A stretch of 64,000 bases of DNA, from the NCBI RefSeq assembly GCF_017921895.1, contig NZ_JAFIDN010000003.1, forward strand, positions 248,001 through 312,000, in the 5' to 3' direction. Source of the DNA: Natronogracilivirga saccharolytica. GTDB lineage: Bacteria; Bacteroidota; Rhodothermia; Balneolales; Natronogracilivirgulaceae. How positions within the stretch are numbered: the first letter of the stretch is position 1; each line of letters starts with the position of its first letter. This document shows positions 9,414-51,204 of the stretch, piece by piece. A program made the translations under genes and the position numbers. The notes below the pieces were generated by a model. The model had not been told where the DNA came from. It did no database searches and saw nothing but the letters and a program-made list of their open reading frames with translations.

Positions 9414-9447
9414 AGGCGCTCAGATAATTTGAGAAGAGGCGCTCAGA
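9414..9447. repeat. Pair of 11-bp direct repeats
   Basis: AGGCGCTCAGA occurs at 9414-9424 and 9437-9447, between the converging wrbA and kamA-like genes; the second copy includes the stop codon of the latter. Function unknown; it may be chance. Confidence 0.4.
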
Positions 9448-10597
9448 GATCGGCGGGATTGTATTCCCGCCAGATCTCGCCTTCATATGATTGCACGGAA
9501 ACATAACTCCCGTCGCGGCCCCGGAATCCGTTTGGAGTAAGCGGGATCTTGCCGTGCGGAGTATCAAGCACATAAAGGGGAATGGCAAACCCGGAGAGAC
9601 GTCCGCGAAGCTGCTCCATCAGCTCCATGCCCCGTTCAATGGTGGTCCTGAAATGGCGCGTTCCGCCAATCAACTGAGCATGATACAGGTAGTAGGGCCG
9701 CACCCTGCATGTGACGAGCTCGTGGAACAGTGACTTCAGTGTTTCGGCATCGTCGTTAATCCCCTTCAGCAGCACGGTCTGGTTTCCGACGGGAACACCG
9801 GCCCGGGTCAGTTTGTCTATAGCATGTCTGGCGTCACCGGTAATTTCCGCGGCATGATTGAAGTGGGTGTTGATCCAGACCGGATGATTTTCGGATATAA
9901 TCCGGCACAGTTCATCAGTAATTCTGAACGGATTCAGGACAGGATACCGTGTCCCGATCCGTATGATATCGATATGCGGAATGGCACGGAGCCTGCTGAT
10001 AATCCATTCGAGGTTTTCATCGTTCAGAGACAGCGGGTCGCCGCCTGTCAGCAGGACATCCCTGATCTCCCCGTGATCGGCGAGATAGTCAATGGCAAGC
10101 TGCAATTCCTCCCTGTTCAGTGCCTGGGTTCCGTCGCCCACCATTCTCTTCCTGAGGCAATACCGGCAGTAAACAGCACATTCGGTAGTCACACAAAAAG
10201 CAACCCGGTCTTTGTAATTGTGGATGAGATTTTTGACCGGACTGTGCGCCTGCTCTTCAAGCGGATCAAGGGCATCGATATCGACATCGTCATCCATCTC
10301 GTCAGCATGCGGCACAACCTGCCGCCTTACCGGACACTGCGGATTATCCGGATCCATCAGTGACGCATAATAAGGGGTTATCCGCCAGCGGAAGTACGAT
10401 GTTGTGCGTTCCAGCCCCTCCAGTTCCTCCCGTGACAGCGAAACCCATTTCTGCAGCTCATCCAGAGAACGGATACGGTTCTTCATCTGCCATTTCCAGT
10501 CCGTCCAGCCGGATGTCTCAGCCTTGGCCGCCCGGCCGTTTCGGGATGGTTGATCAGATGAAGGGGAGGTATGATTTGTTTCTCGGATCGGTTTCAC
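9443..10597 (-). CDS. KamA-family radical SAM aminomutase (lysine 2,3-aminomutase-like)
   Basis: The protein has 384 residues from a GTG at 10597. No in-frame ATG lies before the conserved WKWQMKNRI, so GTG is the likely start. The [4Fe-4S] motif CAVYCRYC has C140, C144 and C147. K350 in VLDTPHGK matches the PLP lysine of lysine 2,3-aminomutase. Clostridial enzyme binds the substrate side-chain amine with D293 and D330; here the first position is Q308 (YHAQLIGG, usually QCDLSEG), while D345 keeps the second. It should therefore move an alpha-amino group to the beta carbon, but the substrate may differ from lysine. It lies 143 bp downstream of the ATP-grasp gene on the same strand, a probable operon. 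Confidence 0.85.
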   Translation of the reverse strand: MKPIRETNHTSPSSDQPSRNGRAAKAETSGWTDWKWQMKNRIRSLDELQKWVSLSREELEGLERTTSYFRWRITPYYASLMDPDNPQCPVRRQVVPHADEMDDDVDIDALDPLEEQAHSPVKNLIHNYKDRVAFCVTTECAVYCRYCLRKRMVGDGTQALNREELQLAIDYLADHGEIRDVLLTGGDPLSLNDENLEWIISRLRAIPHIDIIRIGTRYPVLNPFRITDELCRIISENHPVWINTHFNHAAEITGDARHAIDKLTRAGVPVGNQTVLLKGINDDAETLKSLFHELVTCRVRPYYLYHAQLIGGTRHFRTTIERGMELMEQLRGRLSGFAIPLYVLDTPHGKIPLTPNGFRGRDGSYVSVQSYEGEIWREYNPADL

Positions 10598-10740
10598 AGA
10601 TTGGATCAGTTAGAGTTCGGAATGTATTATGTGATTGCTTATGATAGGTCTGACCGGGGCTGTCATTGATGAATATCACCTGTGGTAATCGCAGATTGTT
10701 ATCGTCAATGATGACTCTGACCGGCCGGTTCTGATGCATC

Positions 10741-11916
10741 TCAGGACTCCTGTTTCAAACGACCGATCGCACCCCGGAGTATTTCACTGAGAAATTCAGG
10801 ATAGGACCGCCCTTCAATTTCAGCAAGAATGGCAAACGTACTGTCGGTGGCAAAGGTCGGAAGGGGATTGATCTCAAGAAGCAGGGGAGTGCCGTTTTGT
10901 GCTATCTTGAAATCAAGCCGGACGAAATCACGAATGCGCAGCCAGTTGCAGAGGGTCAGCGACCAGGAGGAAATATGCTCTTCCAGTTCCGGTGTGATGA
11001 TGCCGGAGACTTCCGAATTCCGGTCATCCGGGGAATGGTCGCGATCAGTGCTCCCGGATTCCGGCTGATCATCAGACTTTTTTCGTCCGCGCCGTCCCTC
11101 AGTCTTTTCAGCATCCGGATCATTGGTTTCCAGAGCATGGGATCCGATTCCGGAGGTATCGAGTCCGCGTTCCATGACGGGATGGGCGCGCAGCGGGTGT
11201 CCGGAGAGGGCGCAGGTAATTTCCGGCCCGTCTATGAACGGTTCAGCCATGACATCCTGGTGGTATGTTTCCAGCAGAAACCGGCACTGATGCCGGAACT
11301 CCTCCGGTGACCGCACCATGCTTTTTTCAGAAATCCCCTTAGAGGTTCCTTCATAACGCGGCTTGAGGAACTGCGGAAAGGGCAGTTCAGGCTCAGGAAT
11401 CGGGGAAGAGTCATCACCCGGGGAGGGCGCATCGCTGTCGCTGCCGCTGCCACTGTCGCTGCCGGATGCCCCCGCGCTGCACCGGCTGTTCCATCCGATA
11501 ATCTGCCAGTCCGAGGTCGGGACTCCCAGAGAGCGGGCAATCATTTTCGTCAGTACCTTGTCCAGGGTCACCGTAAGGGCATAAGCATCGCTTCCCAGAC
11601 AGGGAATACCCTTCATTTCGCAGATGACAGGTGCCCAGGCTTCCCTGTTGCGCGATCCGTACCCTTCCCCGATATTCCAGACGAGGTCCGGCGTGCTGCT
11701 ATGGCCGGCCCCGGCGCTGCCCCCGGATGGGTCCGGACAGTGCGCCACATTCAGCAGCTGATGCGGAGATCCGATGCGCAAGGGCCGGTGTCCTGCATGA
11801 GTAACCGCCTGCTCCATGGCCGCAATGGTTGATTCCGGCTCAAATTCGGCAAACTTGTCATCCGGCCCCCCGGCAAGTTGATAATCCTGTGTGCGGTCAT
11901 ACACCAGTCCAATCAT
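10741..11916 (-). CDS. ATP-grasp ligase, D-alanine-D-alanine ligase-like, with two low-complexity insertions
   Basis: ATG 11916 gives a 391-residue protein; the frame continues 16 codons upstream to a TTG, which is less likely. The ATP-grasp features are K185 in FLKPRYEGTSKG and the metal ligands D335, E348 and N350 (RLDFK, LLLEINPLPTF). The N-terminal part (NIGEGYGSRNREAW, LGSDAYALTVTLDK) is D-Ala-D-Ala-ligase-like. The usual compact fold is interrupted by hydrophilic low-complexity segments at residues 145-178 (S/G/D-rich) and 262-303 (D/R/S-rich). Being next to a KamA enzyme and lacking cell-wall neighbours, it more likely joins a beta-amino acid to another amino acid than makes peptidoglycan D-Ala-D-Ala. 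That role is inference. Confidence 0.75.
   Translation of the reverse strand: MIGLVYDRTQDYQLAGGPDDKFAEFEPESTIAAMEQAVTHAGHRPLRIGSPHQLLNVAHCPDPSGGSAGAGHSSTPDLVWNIGEGYGSRNREAWAPVICEMKGIPCLGSDAYALTVTLDKVLTKMIARSLGVPTSDWQIIGWNSRCSAGASGSDSGSGSDSDAPSPGDDSSPIPEPELPFPQFLKPRYEGTSKGISEKSMVRSPEEFRHQCRFLLETYHQDVMAEPFIDGPEITCALSGHPLRAHPVMERGLDTSGIGSHALETNDPDAEKTEGRRGRKKSDDQPESGSTDRDHSPDDRNSEVSGIITPELEEHISSWSLTLCNWLRIRDFVRLDFKIAQNGTPLLLEINPLPTFATDSTFAILAEIEGRSYPEFLSEILRGAIGRLKQES
11431..11466. repeat. Hexanucleotide microsatellite inside the ATP-grasp gene
   Basis: Read on the coding strand, GGCAGC/GACAGC-type hexamers repeat about six times and encode alternating Ser-Gly and Ser-Asp. This lies in the first low-complexity insertion and is an obvious slippage site; unit loss or gain would keep the frame. 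Confidence 0.6.
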
Positions 11917-12093
11917 AAGGGGTTCACCGCTGGTGATTTTTTGATTCTTTCCGGATGTATGCAAACCAGGTAATAATCGGGTTTTAAAATGAAGCTGTGA
12001 TCCGTTGCTTCCATAAGCAGTATGGCGGACGGATAAATGAAAACAGTAAAAAAATACGAAAAATAGGTGTCAGGATGGTATCTTGTCTGAATT

Positions 12094-12984
12094 ATGAAAA
12101 CGGCCAAACACATAGCTGACAGAATCAGGCTTTTTATTGCCACCAAGCAGTTTCAGGTGGGCGATGTTATGCCGTCGACGCGAGAACTTGGCCGCCAGCT
12201 CGGCGCCAGTTTTCATACCGTACGGAAGGCGTATCATCAGCTTGCCGGTGAGGGGTTGCTGCGCAGCGAGGCAGGCCGCGGATTTGTGGTCAACCGCCAG
12301 AATATGCCTCTTGACAAGTCGCAGCGGCTGGAGATGGGTGCTGAGCGCATCCGGACTGTTCTGGAGGAGCTGATCGGCAACGGGCTGGATGAAGATGAAA
12401 TCGAAACACTGTTCCAGGAGCAGCTGGGTTTTATCGAATGGCCCGAGCGGCTTGAAAGCTGCGCATCGGCCGGTTTTACCCATGAGCATGCAGCGATGAT
12501 TTCCCGTGCCATTGCGTCCGAAGTCGGCATAAAAAGCGATACGATTACCACCGGCGAGACTCAGAAAATGGTCAATTTTGATGCCCTGTTTGTGCCGGTC
12601 CAGCTCATGCGCAACTTCAGAGAGGAGTCGGACAGTACCCTGCTGCTGCCGGTGGTTTATCATCTGAAACCCGAACTGCTCATTTCGCTGAGCGAACGTA
12701 CATCGGTTTCCACCATCGGACTGGTTTCCGGTGAAGAGAAAACGCTCAACATACTAATTGATGAGCTGAAGCTGAGCCTGAAGTTTCAGGGCTCAATCAT
12801 GGCCGGAGGTGCTTACGGCAAGTCACTGCCGCTATTTGTCAGGGAGGTCGACATCGTGCTTTATCCGCACACCCTCGCATCGCTCGTGGAAAAACAACTG
12901 CCGGAACGAAGGCGCATGAAACTGGAATACACTATCGATGCGCGTTCTGCCGAGATCATACGTTCCGAGTTATGGGATCAGTAA
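12094..12984 (+). CDS. GntR-family transcriptional regulator
   Basis: This 296-residue protein has an N-terminal GntR winged helix (residues 1-70): DVMPSTRELGRQLGASFHTV is the helix-turn-helix and GLLRSEAGRGFVV the wing. The C-terminal 200 residues do not match a sensor domain I can name; segments such as TIGLVSGEEKTLNILIDEL look like an alpha/beta ligand-binding fold. The gene is divergent from the ATP-grasp/KamA pair with 177 bp between starts, so it may regulate that pair and itself. A TATCTTG sequence sits about nine bases before the start codon. Confidence 0.8.
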   Translation: MKTAKHIADRIRLFIATKQFQVGDVMPSTRELGRQLGASFHTVRKAYHQLAGEGLLRSEAGRGFVVNRQNMPLDKSQRLEMGAERIRTVLEELIGNGLDEDEIETLFQEQLGFIEWPERLESCASAGFTHEHAAMISRAIASEVGIKSDTITTGETQKMVNFDALFVPVQLMRNFREESDSTLLLPVVYHLKPELLISLSERTSVSTIGLVSGEEKTLNILIDELKLSLKFQGSIMAGGAYGKSLPLFVREVDIVLYPHTLASLVEKQLPERRRMKLEYTIDARSAEIIRSELWDQ

Positions 12985-29246: not shown

Positions 29247-32200
29247 TTATATGCGTACGTTGATGTTAAATCCGACGCTGCGTGTTTCGGGAAACCCGAA
29301 TGCCTCTATTCCCTGGGCATTTCCAATGTTGAAACTGCCCTGTGCCGGACTGAAGCCGGGGGTGTTTTTGTGGAAATAGAACAGGTTCCGGCCAATCACC
29401 GATACTTCAAGTGCGATAATGGGCAGTTGTTCAAGTAAATGAGGAGGCATGAAGTAGGAAAAGGATATTTCACGCATCCGTACATAAGTAGCATCGTAAA
29501 CAAACTCCTCGGTAATTGGGGAGTATCCGCCGACATTGCTCCAGTAGGATTGCGGGTCAACCGGCTTGTCATTCTCGACCCACTCTGTATTTCCGTCCGC
29601 ATCGGTAGTTTCTACAACGCCTTCAGCGACAAACCCGCGGGGTTCGGCATCTGCAACGCCCTCCTCCAGTTCCGCCTGATAGGCATACCACTCCCGGCGC
29701 CCTTCAAGCGTGACTTTTGAATTGCCCCGCTGGGCCATGAATGCGTTCATGAGCGAGTATACCTCACCTCCGTAGGAAATGTCGATCAGTGTGCTCAGCC
29801 CGAAGTTGCGGTACCTGATGTCATTGGAAATGCCACCGGTCCAGTCCGGATTGAAGTTTCCAAGCACATGATCGCCGTCATCTTCCACCGGCATACCATC
29901 ACTGTCAATAATTCTTCGCCCGTCATCATTGCGCTTGTACCGCGTTCCGACAATATCGCCGAAAGGTTCCCCTACGGACGCACGTACGACGGCTCCGTCT
30001 ATGCTGCCGAGGAAATAGTTTTCTACATCCTCATGCAGTTCGATGATCTGGTTGCGGTTGAGTCCGAAGGTAAAGCGGGAGTCCCAGCGCCATCCGGTCC
30101 TGGACTCCAGAGGCGTTATGCCTGCGACAGCTTCAAATCCGCGGTTGCGGATCTCACCGGCATTCACCGTCGCGGACGTGTGTCCGGATGCTTTTGAAAC
30201 CGGGATGTTCAGAATCTGATTCCGCGTGGTTTCCGTATAGGCCGTCATATCCAGCGTCAGGCGGTTGTTGAAGAAGCGCAAGTCAAGTCCGGCTTCATAG
30301 GACCGGGCGATTTCCGGCTTCAGGTCTACCGCAGGCAGTGTGCCGGGCCCGTCGGCAAACGGCTGATCGAAATGTCCCGGATTGACGTTGTATACGAAAT
30401 TGGTCATATACGGATTACCTCCGGCTCCGACATCAGCAAACGAGAGTCTGATGCGGCCGAAGTTGAACGTTTCCGACTCCAGCCCGAAAGCCTCACTCCA
30501 GACAAGCGTTCCGGAAATGGAAGGATACATGAACGGCAGGTTTTCTGTCGGGAGGGTGGATACCCAGTCAATGCGGTTGGTGACTTCCAGAAAGGCATAG
30601 TTCCGAAAACCCAGCTGTGCCGATCCGAAAATGGAGTTCTCACGCTCACGGCCGACAGCGTGGATGTTTGTAACCCGTTCGGCATTGCTGACATCATAAA
30701 AGCCGGGTATGGCAAGTCCGGCCGCACTGTGCCCGAACTCTCTCATGTCATAATTCCGGTAGTTGGCTCCGAAATTCATGTCCAGATGCCACTCTTCGGC
30801 CAGCGGCCTGTCAATGGTAAGTATACCGGTCATATTGAACTCCTCGACGGTCCGGGAGCGCTGGGTAAAGTTCGGCCGGTCTTCGTACGGCGTGTTGGTG
30901 GCCCGGCGGTGCTCCCTGGTTTCTTCAAAGTAGTCAAGTCCTGCCCGGCCCATGACACTGATCCAGTCATTGATGTCATAATCAATCTGGGCAAATCCGT
31001 AAGCACGGTCTCTTTCATCTTCGTTGATATTGAGGTTGTAAGCCCAGTAGGGGTTCATGTTGCGGGTTGAGCGCTGATCCTCGTCGCGCAGCCAGGCGCC
31101 GTCCCAGGTCCGGGTAAACCCGTCAGCTGTCTGGAAATTTTCCATGTCGGAGAGCAGCTCGCTCCGCGGCATGCGGACCAGTGCCTTTACAGGGTTGTCG
31201 GGATCACGTGCCTGCGGGGGCCGGTTGAAGCCGTCCTGTTTGACGTAGTTGAATCGTCCCTCGGCCCGCAGCCTGTCCGAGAATTGCTTGTGAGCACGCA
31301 GCGAAACGCTGTGGCGGGTTACGTCACTGTCAGGATAAATACCCTGGTTGGACATGTTGGTGTAAGAAAGGCGGTATGCGTGGTCGGTTCCGCCGCCGGT
31401 GAGTGTCAGGGACTGATTGCTGGTGACCCCGGTCCGGAAAAAGTCAGTGACCGGATCATCCTGGCCGGTGTAGGGCCGCACCTCATCCGTCCAGTCCCGG
31501 ATCATAATATCGGATGACATGCGCGGACCCCAGCTGTTTTCCTCGCTGTTGTCGATGATATAATAATCTTCATCGGGATTGTAATCGCTGAAAGTGCCTC
31601 CGGAACCGCGGCCGTATTCGTTCTGGAATTCGGGTGTAATTGCCGGCTGTTCAATGGTAACATTGGATGTGTATTCCACGCCGATCCCGTCGACACCTGA
31701 ACCGTCCTTGGTGGTGATGATGACGGCACCGTTGGCGGCTCTGGACCCGTAAAGCGCGGCTGCGTTGGGTCCCTGGAGAATATTGATTGATTTGATATCG
31801 TGAGGGTTGATCTGGTTCAGACCGGTTCCGTAGTCGAATCCGCCCCACTCACCGGCGCTCATGCCGCCGGAGTTGTCGATGGGCATGCCGTCTACAATGA
31901 AAAGCGGCTGATTGGCATCACCGGGCCGCAGTGAGCGGTGTCCGCGAATGATAACTCTTGCAGAGCCATCAGCGCCGGTTCCCAGCCCGGAAATATCGAC
32001 ATTGGCAACACGGCCCTGAAGAGATGTCATGGCATTCATGTCATGGCTTCGGATGAAGTCGTCTGCATCAATTTCCTGTATGGTATGACCGATGGATTTT
32101 TCATCGCGTGTCATTCCCATCGCAGTGACAACGACATCATCACCTTCGAAGACGACAGGACTCAGCCGGACATCGATGGAGGTTCGGTCATCAATTGCAA

Positions 32201-32459
32201 CACTTCGCTCTTCGTAACCGACAAAAGAGAATACCAGATATTCCCCGTCTTCCGGGACTTCAATCTGGTAGTTACCGTCTTCGTCAGAGGTGGTGCCAAT
32301 GGTAGTTTCATCAACAACGATGTTGACTCCGGGAAGCCGGGACTCATCATCGGCGTCATAAACGGTCCCTGTAATTGTGGTTGTCTGGGCTTTGATGCTG
32401 ACTGAGAATGTAACCAGCAGACAGCACATGACGCCGGCTTTCAGTATGCGTGAACTCAT
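29247..32459 (-). CDS. SusC/RagA TonB-dependent transporter (copy 1)
   Basis: The 1070-residue outer-membrane transporter has a signal peptide ending at IKAQ, and a carboxypeptidase-regulatory-like domain at about 27-105 (ITGTVYDADDESRLPGVNI, SFVGYEER). The plug domain follows (VVVTAMGMTRDEKSIG, LQGRVANVDI, IRGHRSLRPG, FIVDGMPIDNSGG), then a 22-strand-type barrel ending in an aromatic-rich C-terminal strand (RSVGFNINVRI). It imports ligands captured by SusD using TonB energy. It heads the trio SusC-SusD-T9SS protein. Copy 2 at 47995 is a close paralogue. The 497-bp upstream region contains repeats described separately. Confidence 0.93.
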   Translation of the reverse strand: MSSRILKAGVMCCLLVTFSVSIKAQTTTITGTVYDADDESRLPGVNIVVDETTIGTTSDEDGNYQIEVPEDGEYLVFSFVGYEERSVAIDDRTSIDVRLSPVVFEGDDVVVTAMGMTRDEKSIGHTIQEIDADDFIRSHDMNAMTSLQGRVANVDISGLGTGADGSARVIIRGHRSLRPGDANQPLFIVDGMPIDNSGGMSAGEWGGFDYGTGLNQINPHDIKSINILQGPNAAALYGSRAANGAVIITTKDGSGVDGIGVEYTSNVTIEQPAITPEFQNEYGRGSGGTFSDYNPDEDYYIIDNSEENSWGPRMSSDIMIRDWTDEVRPYTGQDDPVTDFFRTGVTSNQSLTLTGGGTDHAYRLSYTNMSNQGIYPDSDVTRHSVSLRAHKQFSDRLRAEGRFNYVKQDGFNRPPQARDPDNPVKALVRMPRSELLSDMENFQTADGFTRTWDGAWLRDEDQRSTRNMNPYWAYNLNINEDERDRAYGFAQIDYDINDWISVMGRAGLDYFEETREHRRATNTPYEDRPNFTQRSRTVEEFNMTGILTIDRPLAEEWHLDMNFGANYRNYDMREFGHSAAGLAIPGFYDVSNAERVTNIHAVGRERENSIFGSAQLGFRNYAFLEVTNRIDWVSTLPTENLPFMYPSISGTLVWSEAFGLESETFNFGRIRLSFADVGAGGNPYMTNFVYNVNPGHFDQPFADGPGTLPAVDLKPEIARSYEAGLDLRFFNNRLTLDMTAYTETTRNQILNIPVSKASGHTSATVNAGEIRNRGFEAVAGITPLESRTGWRWDSRFTFGLNRNQIIELHEDVENYFLGSIDGAVVRASVGEPFGDIVGTRYKRNDDGRRIIDSDGMPVEDDGDHVLGNFNPDWTGGISNDIRYRNFGLSTLIDISYGGEVYSLMNAFMAQRGNSKVTLEGRREWYAYQAELEEGVADAEPRGFVAEGVVETTDADGNTEWVENDKPVDPQSYWSNVGGYSPITEEFVYDATYVRMREISFSYFMPPHLLEQLPIIALEVSVIGRNLFYFHKNTPGFSPAQGSFNIGNAQGIEAFGFPETRSVGFNINVRI

Positions 32460-47994: not shown

Positions 47995-50900
47995 TTAAAT
48001 ACGGACATTAATATTAAAGCCGACGCTGCGGGTTTCCGGAAATCCGAAAGCCTCGATTCCCTGAGCGTTTCCGATATTGAAGCTTCCCTGGGCAGGACTG
48101 AAACCGGGTGTGTCTTTGTAAATGTAGAACAGGTTCCGTGCGATGGCAGAAACTTCCAGAGCAACAATGGGCAGCCGCTCAACAATATGCGGTGGCATGA
48201 AATAGGAAACAGCAAGCTCCCGGAACCGGACATAAGTGGCATCATATATGAACTCTTCGGTAACCGGCGAATAGCCTCCGACGTTACTCCAGTAGGTCTG
48301 TGGGTTTACAGCAATGTCGTTTTCAACCCATACGGTGTTGCCGTCGGCATCAGTAGTTTCAATGACTCCGTCAGCAACGAAACCCCGTGGTTCGGCATCA
48401 GGATTGCCGTCAAGCTCGGCCTGATACGCATACCACTCGCTCCGGCCTTCAAGCGTGATTTTCGAGTTTCCGCGTTGTGCCATCAGGGCATTGGTCAGTG
48501 AATAAACCTCCCCGCCATAAGAAATGTCGATCAGGGTGCTGAGACCGAAATTTCGGTAGCGCAAATTGTTGCTGAACCCGCCGGTCCAGTCCGGATTGAA
48601 ATTGCCAAGGACATGATCACCGTCATCAACTACCGGAATCCCGTTGTTGTCAATAATCCGGCGCCCGTCTTCATTTCGTTTGTATCGGGTACCGACAATA
48701 TCACCAAATGGATCACCGACAGAAGCCCGGACAATGGCTCCGTCAATGCTGCCCAGAAAGTAATTGGTCACATCCTCATGCAATTCCCGGATCTCGTTGC
48801 GGTTTACACCAAAGGTGATTCTGGAATCCCAGCGCCAGCCGGTGCGGGAGTCTAAAGGGATACCGCTGACAACGGCTTCAAATCCACGATTCTGGATTTC
48901 ACCGGCATTTACTGTCGCGGCATTGTGTCCGGATGCTTTTGTCACCGCAACACTCAGAATCTGATTGCGGGTTGTCTCGGTATAGGCACTCATATCCATG
49001 GAAAGGCGGCCTTCGAAAAACCTGAGATCGAGTCCGATTTCATACGACCGGGCAATCTCCGGCTTTAAATCAATGGCGGGAAGTGTTCCCGGCCCCTGTG
49101 CAAACGGCTGACCAAAATGTCCGGGATTCACCGTATAAACAAAGTTGGTGAGATAAGCCGGACCGCCGGCGCCAACCTCTGCCGCGGAAAGCCGCAGCCG
49201 GCCAAATGTGAAGGTTTCCGACTCCAGCCCGAAAGCCTCACTCCAGACAAGGGTAGCCGACAAGGAAGGGTAAATAAAAGGCAGGTTGTCAACCGGAAGG
49301 GTGGATACCCAGTCTACCCGATTCGTTGCCTCCAGAAATGCATAATTGCGAAATCCGATTTGTGCTGACCCGAAAACCGAATTTTCCCTCTGCCGGCTGA
49401 TGCCGAAGATGTTGGCAACGGTCTCGGCATTGCTGACACTGTAAAACTCCGGAATATTCAGTCCGATTCCGCGATGACCGACTTCCTGAACATCAAGGTT
49501 CCTGTAGTTCCCCCCAACGTTCATTTCCAGAGTCCAGTCGTCTGCAAGTGCACGGTCTACTGTGACAATACCGGTGACATTAAACTCCTCAACCGTACGC
49601 GTACGAATGGTGAAAGAGGGCTGGTCTTCGTAAGGTGTGTTCGTTGCTCTCCGGTGCTGCCGCGTTTCCTCAAAAAAGTCAAGCCCGCCGCGCACCATCA
49701 CACTCATCCAGTCGGTAACATTGTAGTCAAACTGGGCAAAACCGTATGCACGGTCCCGCTCATCATCATTGATATTCAGATTATAGGCCCAGTATGGGTT
49801 CATGTTTCTTGTCGAGCGCTGCCCCTCATCACGGAGCCAGGCGCCATCCCATGTTCTTGCAAGGCCATCGGCTGTCCTGAAGTTCTCAAGATCTTCCAGA
49901 CGCTCACTGCGCGGCATCCGGACAAGCGCCTTGACCGGGTTGTCAGGGTCGCGAGCCTGCGGCGGGCGGTTGAACCCGTCCTGGTTGACATAGCTGAACC
50001 GGCCTTCGGCACGCAGCCTGTCGGAAAATTGCTTGTGGGCCCGGAGAGAGATGCTGTTTCTGATGACTTCACTGTCGGGATAGATCCCCTGATTGGTCAT
50101 ATTGGTATAGGATAACCGGTATCCGTGATCGGTCCCTCCGCCGGTCATGGTAATGGTCTGGTTGCTGGTAACTCCTGTGCGGAAAAAATCCTGCACGTGA
50201 TCTGACTGTGCCGAGTACGGGCGGACTTCCCCCGTCCAGTTACGGACCATGATATTGTCAGACATCCGGGGACCCCAGCTGTTCTCTTCGGTGTTGTCGA
50301 TGATATAGAAGTCCTCGTCGGCATTGTAGTCATTGAATGTGCCGCCGGAGCCGCGGCCGAACTCGTTTTGAAAATCCGGAGTGATTGCAGGTCTTTCAAA
50401 GGTCACGTTGGATGTGTATTCAACCCCGATGCCGTCAACGCCTCGGCCGCTTTTGGTAGTAATGATTACCGCGCCGTTGGCCGCCCTGGATCCGTATAGT
50501 GCCGCGGCATTGGGACCCTGAAGAATGTTGATGGATTCTATATCATTGGGGTTGATCTGGTTCAGTCCGGTGCCGTAATCAAACCCGCCCCATTGTCCGG
50601 CACTCATTCCGCCTGAGTTGTCGATAGGCATACCGTCAACGATGATCAGCGGCTGGTTGGCATCGCCCGGCCGCAATGACCGGTGTCCCCGGATGATAAT
50701 CCTTGCGGATCCGTCAGCTCCGGTGCCGAGTCCGGTAATGTCAACATTGGCAACCCGGCCCTGAAGTGATGTCATGGGGTTCATGTCATGTGTTCGGAGA
50801 AAATCTTCGGAATCGATCTGCTGAACGGTATATCCGATAGATTTCTCCTGGCGTGTCATGCCCATTGCCGTGACCACCACATCATCACCTTCAAACACCA

Positions 50901-51204
50901 CCGGACTGAGCCGCACGTTGATGGTGGTTCGGTCAGCGATTCTGACATTTCTTGTCTCGAAGCCGATGAATGAAAAGACAAGCCGCCCGGCGTCTTCCGG
51001 TACTTCAAGTTCGTAATTTCCGTCTGTATCACTTGTGGTGCCAATTGTCGTTCCCTCCACAACGATGTTGACACCCGGCAGCCGCGATTCATCTTCAGCG
51101 TCATAAACGGTACCGGTAATAGTACGGGTTTGTGCTTCAGCAACTGATGTCCAGGCCAGAATAAGACAGAGGATTAAACCGGCTGAGTACGTGCGTTTTT
51201 TCAT
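47995..51204 (-). CDS. SusC/RagA TonB-dependent transporter (copy 2)
   Basis: The 1069-residue protein has the same domain order as the copy at 29247: signal peptide ending at AEAQ, regulatory-like beta domain (ITGTVYDAEDESRLPGVNI), plug (LQGRVANVDITG, IIVDGMPIDNSGG) and barrel ending RSVGFNINVRI. Long stretches are identical to copy 1, with replacements concentrated in predicted extracellular loops and some strands. It belongs to the second trio and presumably imports a related ligand. Upstream are two TGGT(A/G)AAAAATTG repeats and a GCGGTT/AACCGC inverted repeat at 51318-51341. Confidence 0.93.
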   Translation of the reverse strand: MKKRTYSAGLILCLILAWTSVAEAQTRTITGTVYDAEDESRLPGVNIVVEGTTIGTTSDTDGNYELEVPEDAGRLVFSFIGFETRNVRIADRTTINVRLSPVVFEGDDVVVTAMGMTRQEKSIGYTVQQIDSEDFLRTHDMNPMTSLQGRVANVDITGLGTGADGSARIIIRGHRSLRPGDANQPLIIVDGMPIDNSGGMSAGQWGGFDYGTGLNQINPNDIESINILQGPNAAALYGSRAANGAVIITTKSGRGVDGIGVEYTSNVTFERPAITPDFQNEFGRGSGGTFNDYNADEDFYIIDNTEENSWGPRMSDNIMVRNWTGEVRPYSAQSDHVQDFFRTGVTSNQTITMTGGGTDHGYRLSYTNMTNQGIYPDSEVIRNSISLRAHKQFSDRLRAEGRFSYVNQDGFNRPPQARDPDNPVKALVRMPRSERLEDLENFRTADGLARTWDGAWLRDEGQRSTRNMNPYWAYNLNINDDERDRAYGFAQFDYNVTDWMSVMVRGGLDFFEETRQHRRATNTPYEDQPSFTIRTRTVEEFNVTGIVTVDRALADDWTLEMNVGGNYRNLDVQEVGHRGIGLNIPEFYSVSNAETVANIFGISRQRENSVFGSAQIGFRNYAFLEATNRVDWVSTLPVDNLPFIYPSLSATLVWSEAFGLESETFTFGRLRLSAAEVGAGGPAYLTNFVYTVNPGHFGQPFAQGPGTLPAIDLKPEIARSYEIGLDLRFFEGRLSMDMSAYTETTRNQILSVAVTKASGHNAATVNAGEIQNRGFEAVVSGIPLDSRTGWRWDSRITFGVNRNEIRELHEDVTNYFLGSIDGAIVRASVGDPFGDIVGTRYKRNEDGRRIIDNNGIPVVDDGDHVLGNFNPDWTGGFSNNLRYRNFGLSTLIDISYGGEVYSLTNALMAQRGNSKITLEGRSEWYAYQAELDGNPDAEPRGFVADGVIETTDADGNTVWVENDIAVNPQTYWSNVGGYSPVTEEFIYDATYVRFRELAVSYFMPPHIVERLPIVALEVSAIARNLFYIYKDTPGFSPAQGSFNIGNAQGIEAFGFPETRSVGFNINVRI

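Follow-up and report, generated by a model that had tools for sequence, protein, structure and literature searches.

A KamA-type aminomutase and a Ddl-fold ATP-grasp ligase inherited as a pair in two bacterial phyla, with a probable role in beta-amino-acid metabolism

Organization of the locus

The window, i.e. the complete stretch of 64,000 nucleotides that was analysed, contains a gene for a KamA-type aminomutase, a gene for an ATP-grasp ligase on the same strand, and the divergently oriented gene of a GntR-family regulator. This three-gene arrangement had been proposed in an initial annotation of the DNA, and the open reading frames and their strands are as claimed there. The features of the locus are the following (LAM, Clostridium lysine 2,3-aminomutase; Ddl, D-alanine--D-alanine ligase):

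9443–10597, minus strand: Q-type KamA of 384 residues with a GTG start, a member of the radical SAM, PLP 2,3-aminomutase family
10157–10180, minus strand: CxxxCxxC motif of KamA (C140, C144, C147), followed by a clade-specific LRK
9674–9676, minus strand: codon of KamA Q308 (LAM D293)
9548–9550, minus strand: codon of KamA K350 (PLP lysine, LAM K337), within a shortened DTPxGK motif
10741–11916, minus strand: Ddl-fold ATP-grasp ligase, the partner of KamA, 391 residues from the ATG at 11916, PF07478
11917–12093, no strand: divergent intergenic region between ligase and GntR genes, presumed promoter/operator region
12094–12984, plus strand: GntR-family regulator, divergent from the ligase, PF00392

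As listed, the open reading frame of the ligase has a TTG start and extends to position 11964. This start is probably wrong, because the start typical of the ligase family is the ATG at 11916. Compared to shorter relatives, the window ligase (10741–11916) carries two additional low-complexity insertions, one rich in Ser, Gly and Asp and the other charged. Elsewhere in the window, two TonB-dependent receptors of near-identical domain make-up are encoded at 29247–32459 (1070 residues) and 47995–51204 (1069 residues); a GH38 glycosidase and sugar genes are located near them. The proteins scanned in the window include none that evidently belong to a peptidoglycan or osmolyte pathway.

Active sites of the two enzymes

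Residues 28–377 of the window KamA align with LAM (2a5h) with an E-value of 9e-110, and the protein passes the KamA family model TIGR00238 (371.9 bits, cut-off 199.2). It stays below the equivalog cut-off for lysine 2,3-aminomutase (AblA, TIGR03820; 440.3 versus 525.4 bits). Arginine aminomutase (TIGR04468; 448.5 versus 600), glutamate aminomutase (TIGR04368; 435 versus 650) and EpmB (TIGR03821; 269.6 versus 369.3) likewise belong to the KamA family, and their cut-offs are not reached either. The specificity model with the best score is that for Arg in the case of the window KamA (448.5) and that for Glu in the case of the KamA at L183, a locus from a second phylum (446). Because the scores of the window KamA are far under the curated cut-offs, an Arg, Glu or EpmB specificity cannot be transferred to it. 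To our knowledge, the established substrates of KamA-type aminomutases are few, namely lysine, glutamate and arginine. Two longer KamA-like proteins of 503 and 540 residues occur in genome G000 (C1:130125–130820 and C7:169244–169753; L104 and L105) and score under the KamA subfamily cut-off.

In the alignment, C140, C144, C147, K350 and Q308 of the window KamA correspond to C125, C129, C132, K337 and D293 of LAM. The radical SAM and PLP residues that had been named beforehand are thus all in place, and the Gln that had been noted instead of Asp293 proved to be fixed across the whole clade. Lysine aminomutases are recognized by a pair of Asp residues at positions 293 and 330, which serve the epsilon-ammonium group; the window KamA has a Gln at the former position and retains the latter as D345. 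For the comparison of residues, 125 sequences were used, including 100 of the window's clade and 23 D-type relatives. Position 293 (LAM numbering, as below) is a Gln in 100 of 100 clade members, whereas 23 of 23 D-type relatives, LAM and E. coli EpmB have an Asp there. Furthermore, T133 is replaced by Leu, L298 by Thr, A331 by Thr and R112 by Asn or Val in all 100 clade sequences, in which the GGGG loop ahead of the PLP lysine is also shorter by two residues. In common with LAM, the clade invariably possesses the radical-SAM cysteines, R134, D330 and the PLP lysine K337, and the window KamA has a similar core. The Q-type KamAs form a single split in the tree with a support of 1.0.

The ligase contains a Dala_Dala_lig_C domain (PF07478, 66.7 bits). 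Its AlphaFold (AF2) model has a pLDDT of 84.6 and matches Ddl structures in Foldseek with an E-value of 3e-18 and a probability of 1.00; the score of 89.7 bits is below the Ddl subfamily cut-off of 245.65. The fold and all ATP/Mg catalytic residues are shared with Ddl and Van ligases: all 58 pair ligases compared have the residues equivalent to DdlB K97, K144, E180, E187, R255, D257, E270 and N272. In contrast, the pocket for D-Ala is altered in these 58 sequences. Y216, G276 and M277 of DdlB are replaced, although the loss of Y216 is uncertain as a single position because this loop aligns poorly; S281 is mostly a Gly, and the NTSPGM motif of DdlB reads NPLPTF.

In the tree, the pair ligases group together (support 0.965), separately from DdlB and from the Ddl of the window's own genome. 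The latter is a separate, canonical enzyme (L207:8906–10093) that scores above the Ddl subfamily cut-offs. Given this canonical Ddl and the altered D-Ala pocket, a role of the window ligase as cell-wall Ddl was rejected. At the sequence level, the separate clade and the second Ddl copy in the genome also speak for the initial annotation, which would have been contradicted by a grouping of the ligase with true Ddl enzymes. Judged by their sequences, KamA and the ligase belong to neither the lysine aminomutase nor the Ddl families.

Co-inheritance and gene neighbourhoods

The KamA-ligase pair is a real genetic unit that is inherited as one in two phyla. A survey of the window's phylum comprised 396 sampled genomes, and the KamA counts were taken from the own, order and class rows. 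In the window's class, a close KamA is present in 37 genomes, 36 of which also possess the ligase; a ligase without KamA was found in none of the class genomes sampled. Within the window's order, families without one of the genes are also without the other, which applies to most genomes sampled from the order (family f3). The Fisher value for co-occurrence is 2e-50, which overstates independence because the genomes are interrelated; likewise, the genome counts exceed the number of independent events, as the sampled genomes share ancestry. In the second phylum (Myxococcota-type deltaproteobacteria, 284 genomes surveyed), the ligase accompanies a close KamA in 44 of 44 genomes, the two genes being within 300 bases of each other in 41 and on different contigs in 3. 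Many ligase-like relatives in this phylum do not adjoin a KamA.

When public genomes were searched with only the KamA alignment as query, 80 loci were retrieved. In 63 of these, the ligase gene immediately precedes that of KamA in the same orientation, and the median distance between the two is 35 bases. Some of the remaining loci are truncated by contig ends, and in others the ligase is located elsewhere in the genome (e.g. G073). The genera represented include Roseithermus, Salinibacter, Salinivenus, Longimonas, Rhodothermus and Rubrivirga; Balneolales MAGs are nearest to the window, and deltaproteobacterial/Myxococcota MAGs are found as well. The conservation of the pair across genomes, which had been suggested as a check, therefore extends to two phyla.

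The third gene is less widespread. A GntR gene divergent from the ligase is also present in the assessable Balneolales relatives and was not found in Rhodothermales or second-phylum loci; aligning the divergent ligase/GntR regions revealed no conserved operator. Because it was not found outside the Balneolales relatives, GntR is considered a local regulator and no defining part of the pair. The regulator and its divergent orientation are thus confirmed, whereas its linkage to the pair holds only in Balneolales.

Gene order in the second phylum is ligase-KamA-MurJ, with MurJ just after KamA in 23 of 24 loci, and this MurJ is the sole one in the nine genomes tested. The initial annotation had described the ligase as having no cell-wall neighbours, which is true within the window but not in the second phylum, where MurJ usually follows the pair. 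The wider surroundings there consist of CstA, a VanZ-like protein, the ligase and KamA, MurJ, and a 5-oxoprolinase/hydantoinase (L183:6352–16459 and relatives). Downstream of KamA at L142:11526–13097 and at 23 other Rhodothermales loci, a protein of about 430–530 residues is encoded that carries a membrane stretch at its N-terminus and matches no Pfam family.

In other Bacteroidota, a conserved run of a recG-like gene, ligA, ligB, GNAT and kamA was found, for which we know of no name. It likewise joins a KamA with Ddl-like ligases; it differs from the window pair in having two ligases, a GNAT and a D293-type KamA. The run occurs at L086–L089, L094, L098–L101, L103, L106, L107 and L115, although not all genes are present in each. 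KamA is found in 64 of 66 genomes with a strong LigA. The GNAT of the cluster is absent from 21 of 22 order and class genomes tested, including G000. In the second phylum, the Ddl-like ligases LigB and LigA also exist as a single fused reading frame of about 690–750 residues that is not adjacent to a KamA (L255–L259, L265). KamA and Ddl-like ligases are therefore associated beyond the window's clade as well, and the two-gene version of the window is the minimal form of this association.

Proposed pathway and nature of the product

The types of reaction catalyzed by KamA enzymes and by ATP-grasp ligases are established. We propose, with a probability of about 0.6, a two-enzyme pathway: KamA would generate a beta-amino acid, which is probably not, or not only, beta-lysine, and the ligase would link it through an amide bond. 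By analogy with its family, the Q-type KamA would rely on a [4Fe-4S] cluster, on SAM and on PLP, and would shift the alpha-amino group of a free L-amino acid to C3, yielding the beta-amino acid. The ligase would then phosphorylate the carboxylate of one amino acid by means of ATP and couple it to the amine of another. The predicted product is a beta-amino-acid-containing dipeptide or amide. That catalytic residues are kept, both pockets are changed and co-inheritance is strict fits a two-step route to a beta-amino-acid amide. Since residues that fix the substrate in known relatives have been lost in both enzymes, the pair probably makes an undescribed beta-amino-acid compound. Although the two enzymes presumably act in sequence, co-occurrence alone cannot show that the ligase takes the product of KamA, and both could feed a larger pathway. 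On the whole, the initial annotation is partly supported; its core, a small pathway that makes and joins a beta-amino acid, is consistent with the conservation of the pair in two phyla and with a ligase apart from true Ddl enzymes.

The same two-gene logic, with a KamA whose beta-amino acid is derivatised by one further enzyme, underlies the AblA/AblB pathway to the osmolyte N-epsilon-acetyl-beta-lysine. Here, the second enzyme is an ATP-grasp ligase instead of an acetyltransferase, and no gene for a beta-lysine acetyltransferase was found beside KamA in the window and the related loci checked.

It is conceivable that KamA yields ordinary beta-lysine, which the ligase joins to another amino acid. 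The Gln would then be tolerated, with D330 still binding the epsilon-ammonium group, and a KamA with Q308 that retains D330 might indeed still accept lysine: D330, R134 and the PLP lysine are invariant in the clade, other Bacteroidota KamAs linked to related ligases retain both Asp residues, and EpmB is a lysine aminomutase despite lacking the DAPGG motif around D330, such that one Asp may suffice. However, a Gln that is fixed together with other changes in 100 of 100 sequences is the pattern of an altered specificity and not of drift; the bound side chain is therefore probably not, or not only, that of lysine. With the score of the window KamA also lying under the lysine equivalog cut-off (440 versus 525), we consider plain beta-lysine rather improbable. 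Much more remote is a modification of a protein such as EF-P with a beta-amino acid, the ligase being an ATP-grasp analogue of EpmA. In E. coli, EpmB, a KamA family member, and EpmA modify EF-P in this way, but the fold of the window ligase is that of small-molecule dipeptide ligases. This candidate was rejected after inspection of EF-P, whose PGKG loop with a modifiable Lys occurs in pair-bearing and pair-lacking genomes alike, a few loci being without a clear loop match.

Two further proposals refine the pathway by assigning a purpose to its product. It may be an envelope building block, i.e. a peptidoglycan or other lipid-linked precursor with a beta-amino acid, and the ligase a relative of Ddl that makes a dipeptide other than D-Ala-D-Ala. 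The Ddl fold agrees with this, and the ligase-KamA-MurJ order of the second phylum, with its sole MurJ, mildly favours an envelope role. Nevertheless, this synteny may reflect one historical event beside a housekeeping gene, comparable to recG in other Bacteroidota; moreover, the pair has no adjoining cell-wall gene in the window, and G000 yielded no match to PF03023 (MurJ). An envelope function is therefore possible but doubtful. Alternatively, the product may be a compatible solute akin to N-epsilon-acetyl-beta-lysine, the ligase taking over from the acetyltransferase. The names of many members point to halophiles (Salinibacter, Salinivenus, Longimonas halophila and related MAGs), and the two genes of the window have their own regulator. 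On the other hand, thermophilic genera and a MAG with a label suggestive of soil (L129, L131, L185) are among the members as well, and most of the genomes sampled from the window's order (family f3) have neither gene. Because of these members and this patchy distribution, which mildly disfavours a compatible solute, such a function is not favoured and appears unlikely.

In the literature searched, where enzyme names with comma-separated numbers are poorly found, no paper describing the pair or its pathway was encountered, and a search on Rhodothermus cell walls returned nothing useful. The pair is a variant of the KamA beta-amino-acid pathway that is so far undescribed in this literature. In its most specific form, which we advance tentatively and at somewhat less than even odds, the proposal is an undescribed two-enzyme pathway of Rhodothermia and Myxococcota-type bacteria: a KamA of new specificity would make a beta-amino acid other than beta-lysine, from which a dedicated Ddl-fold ligase would build a new dipeptide for the envelope or as an abundant solute. 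The names "lysine 2,3-aminomutase" and "D-alanine--D-alanine ligase" that homology assigns to the two proteins both miss their own family cut-offs. A KamA clade with a fixed change at a residue for the lysine side chain, always accompanied by its own peptide-forming ligase, offers a directly assayable enzyme pair and points to a widespread, uncharacterised beta-amino-acid metabolite.
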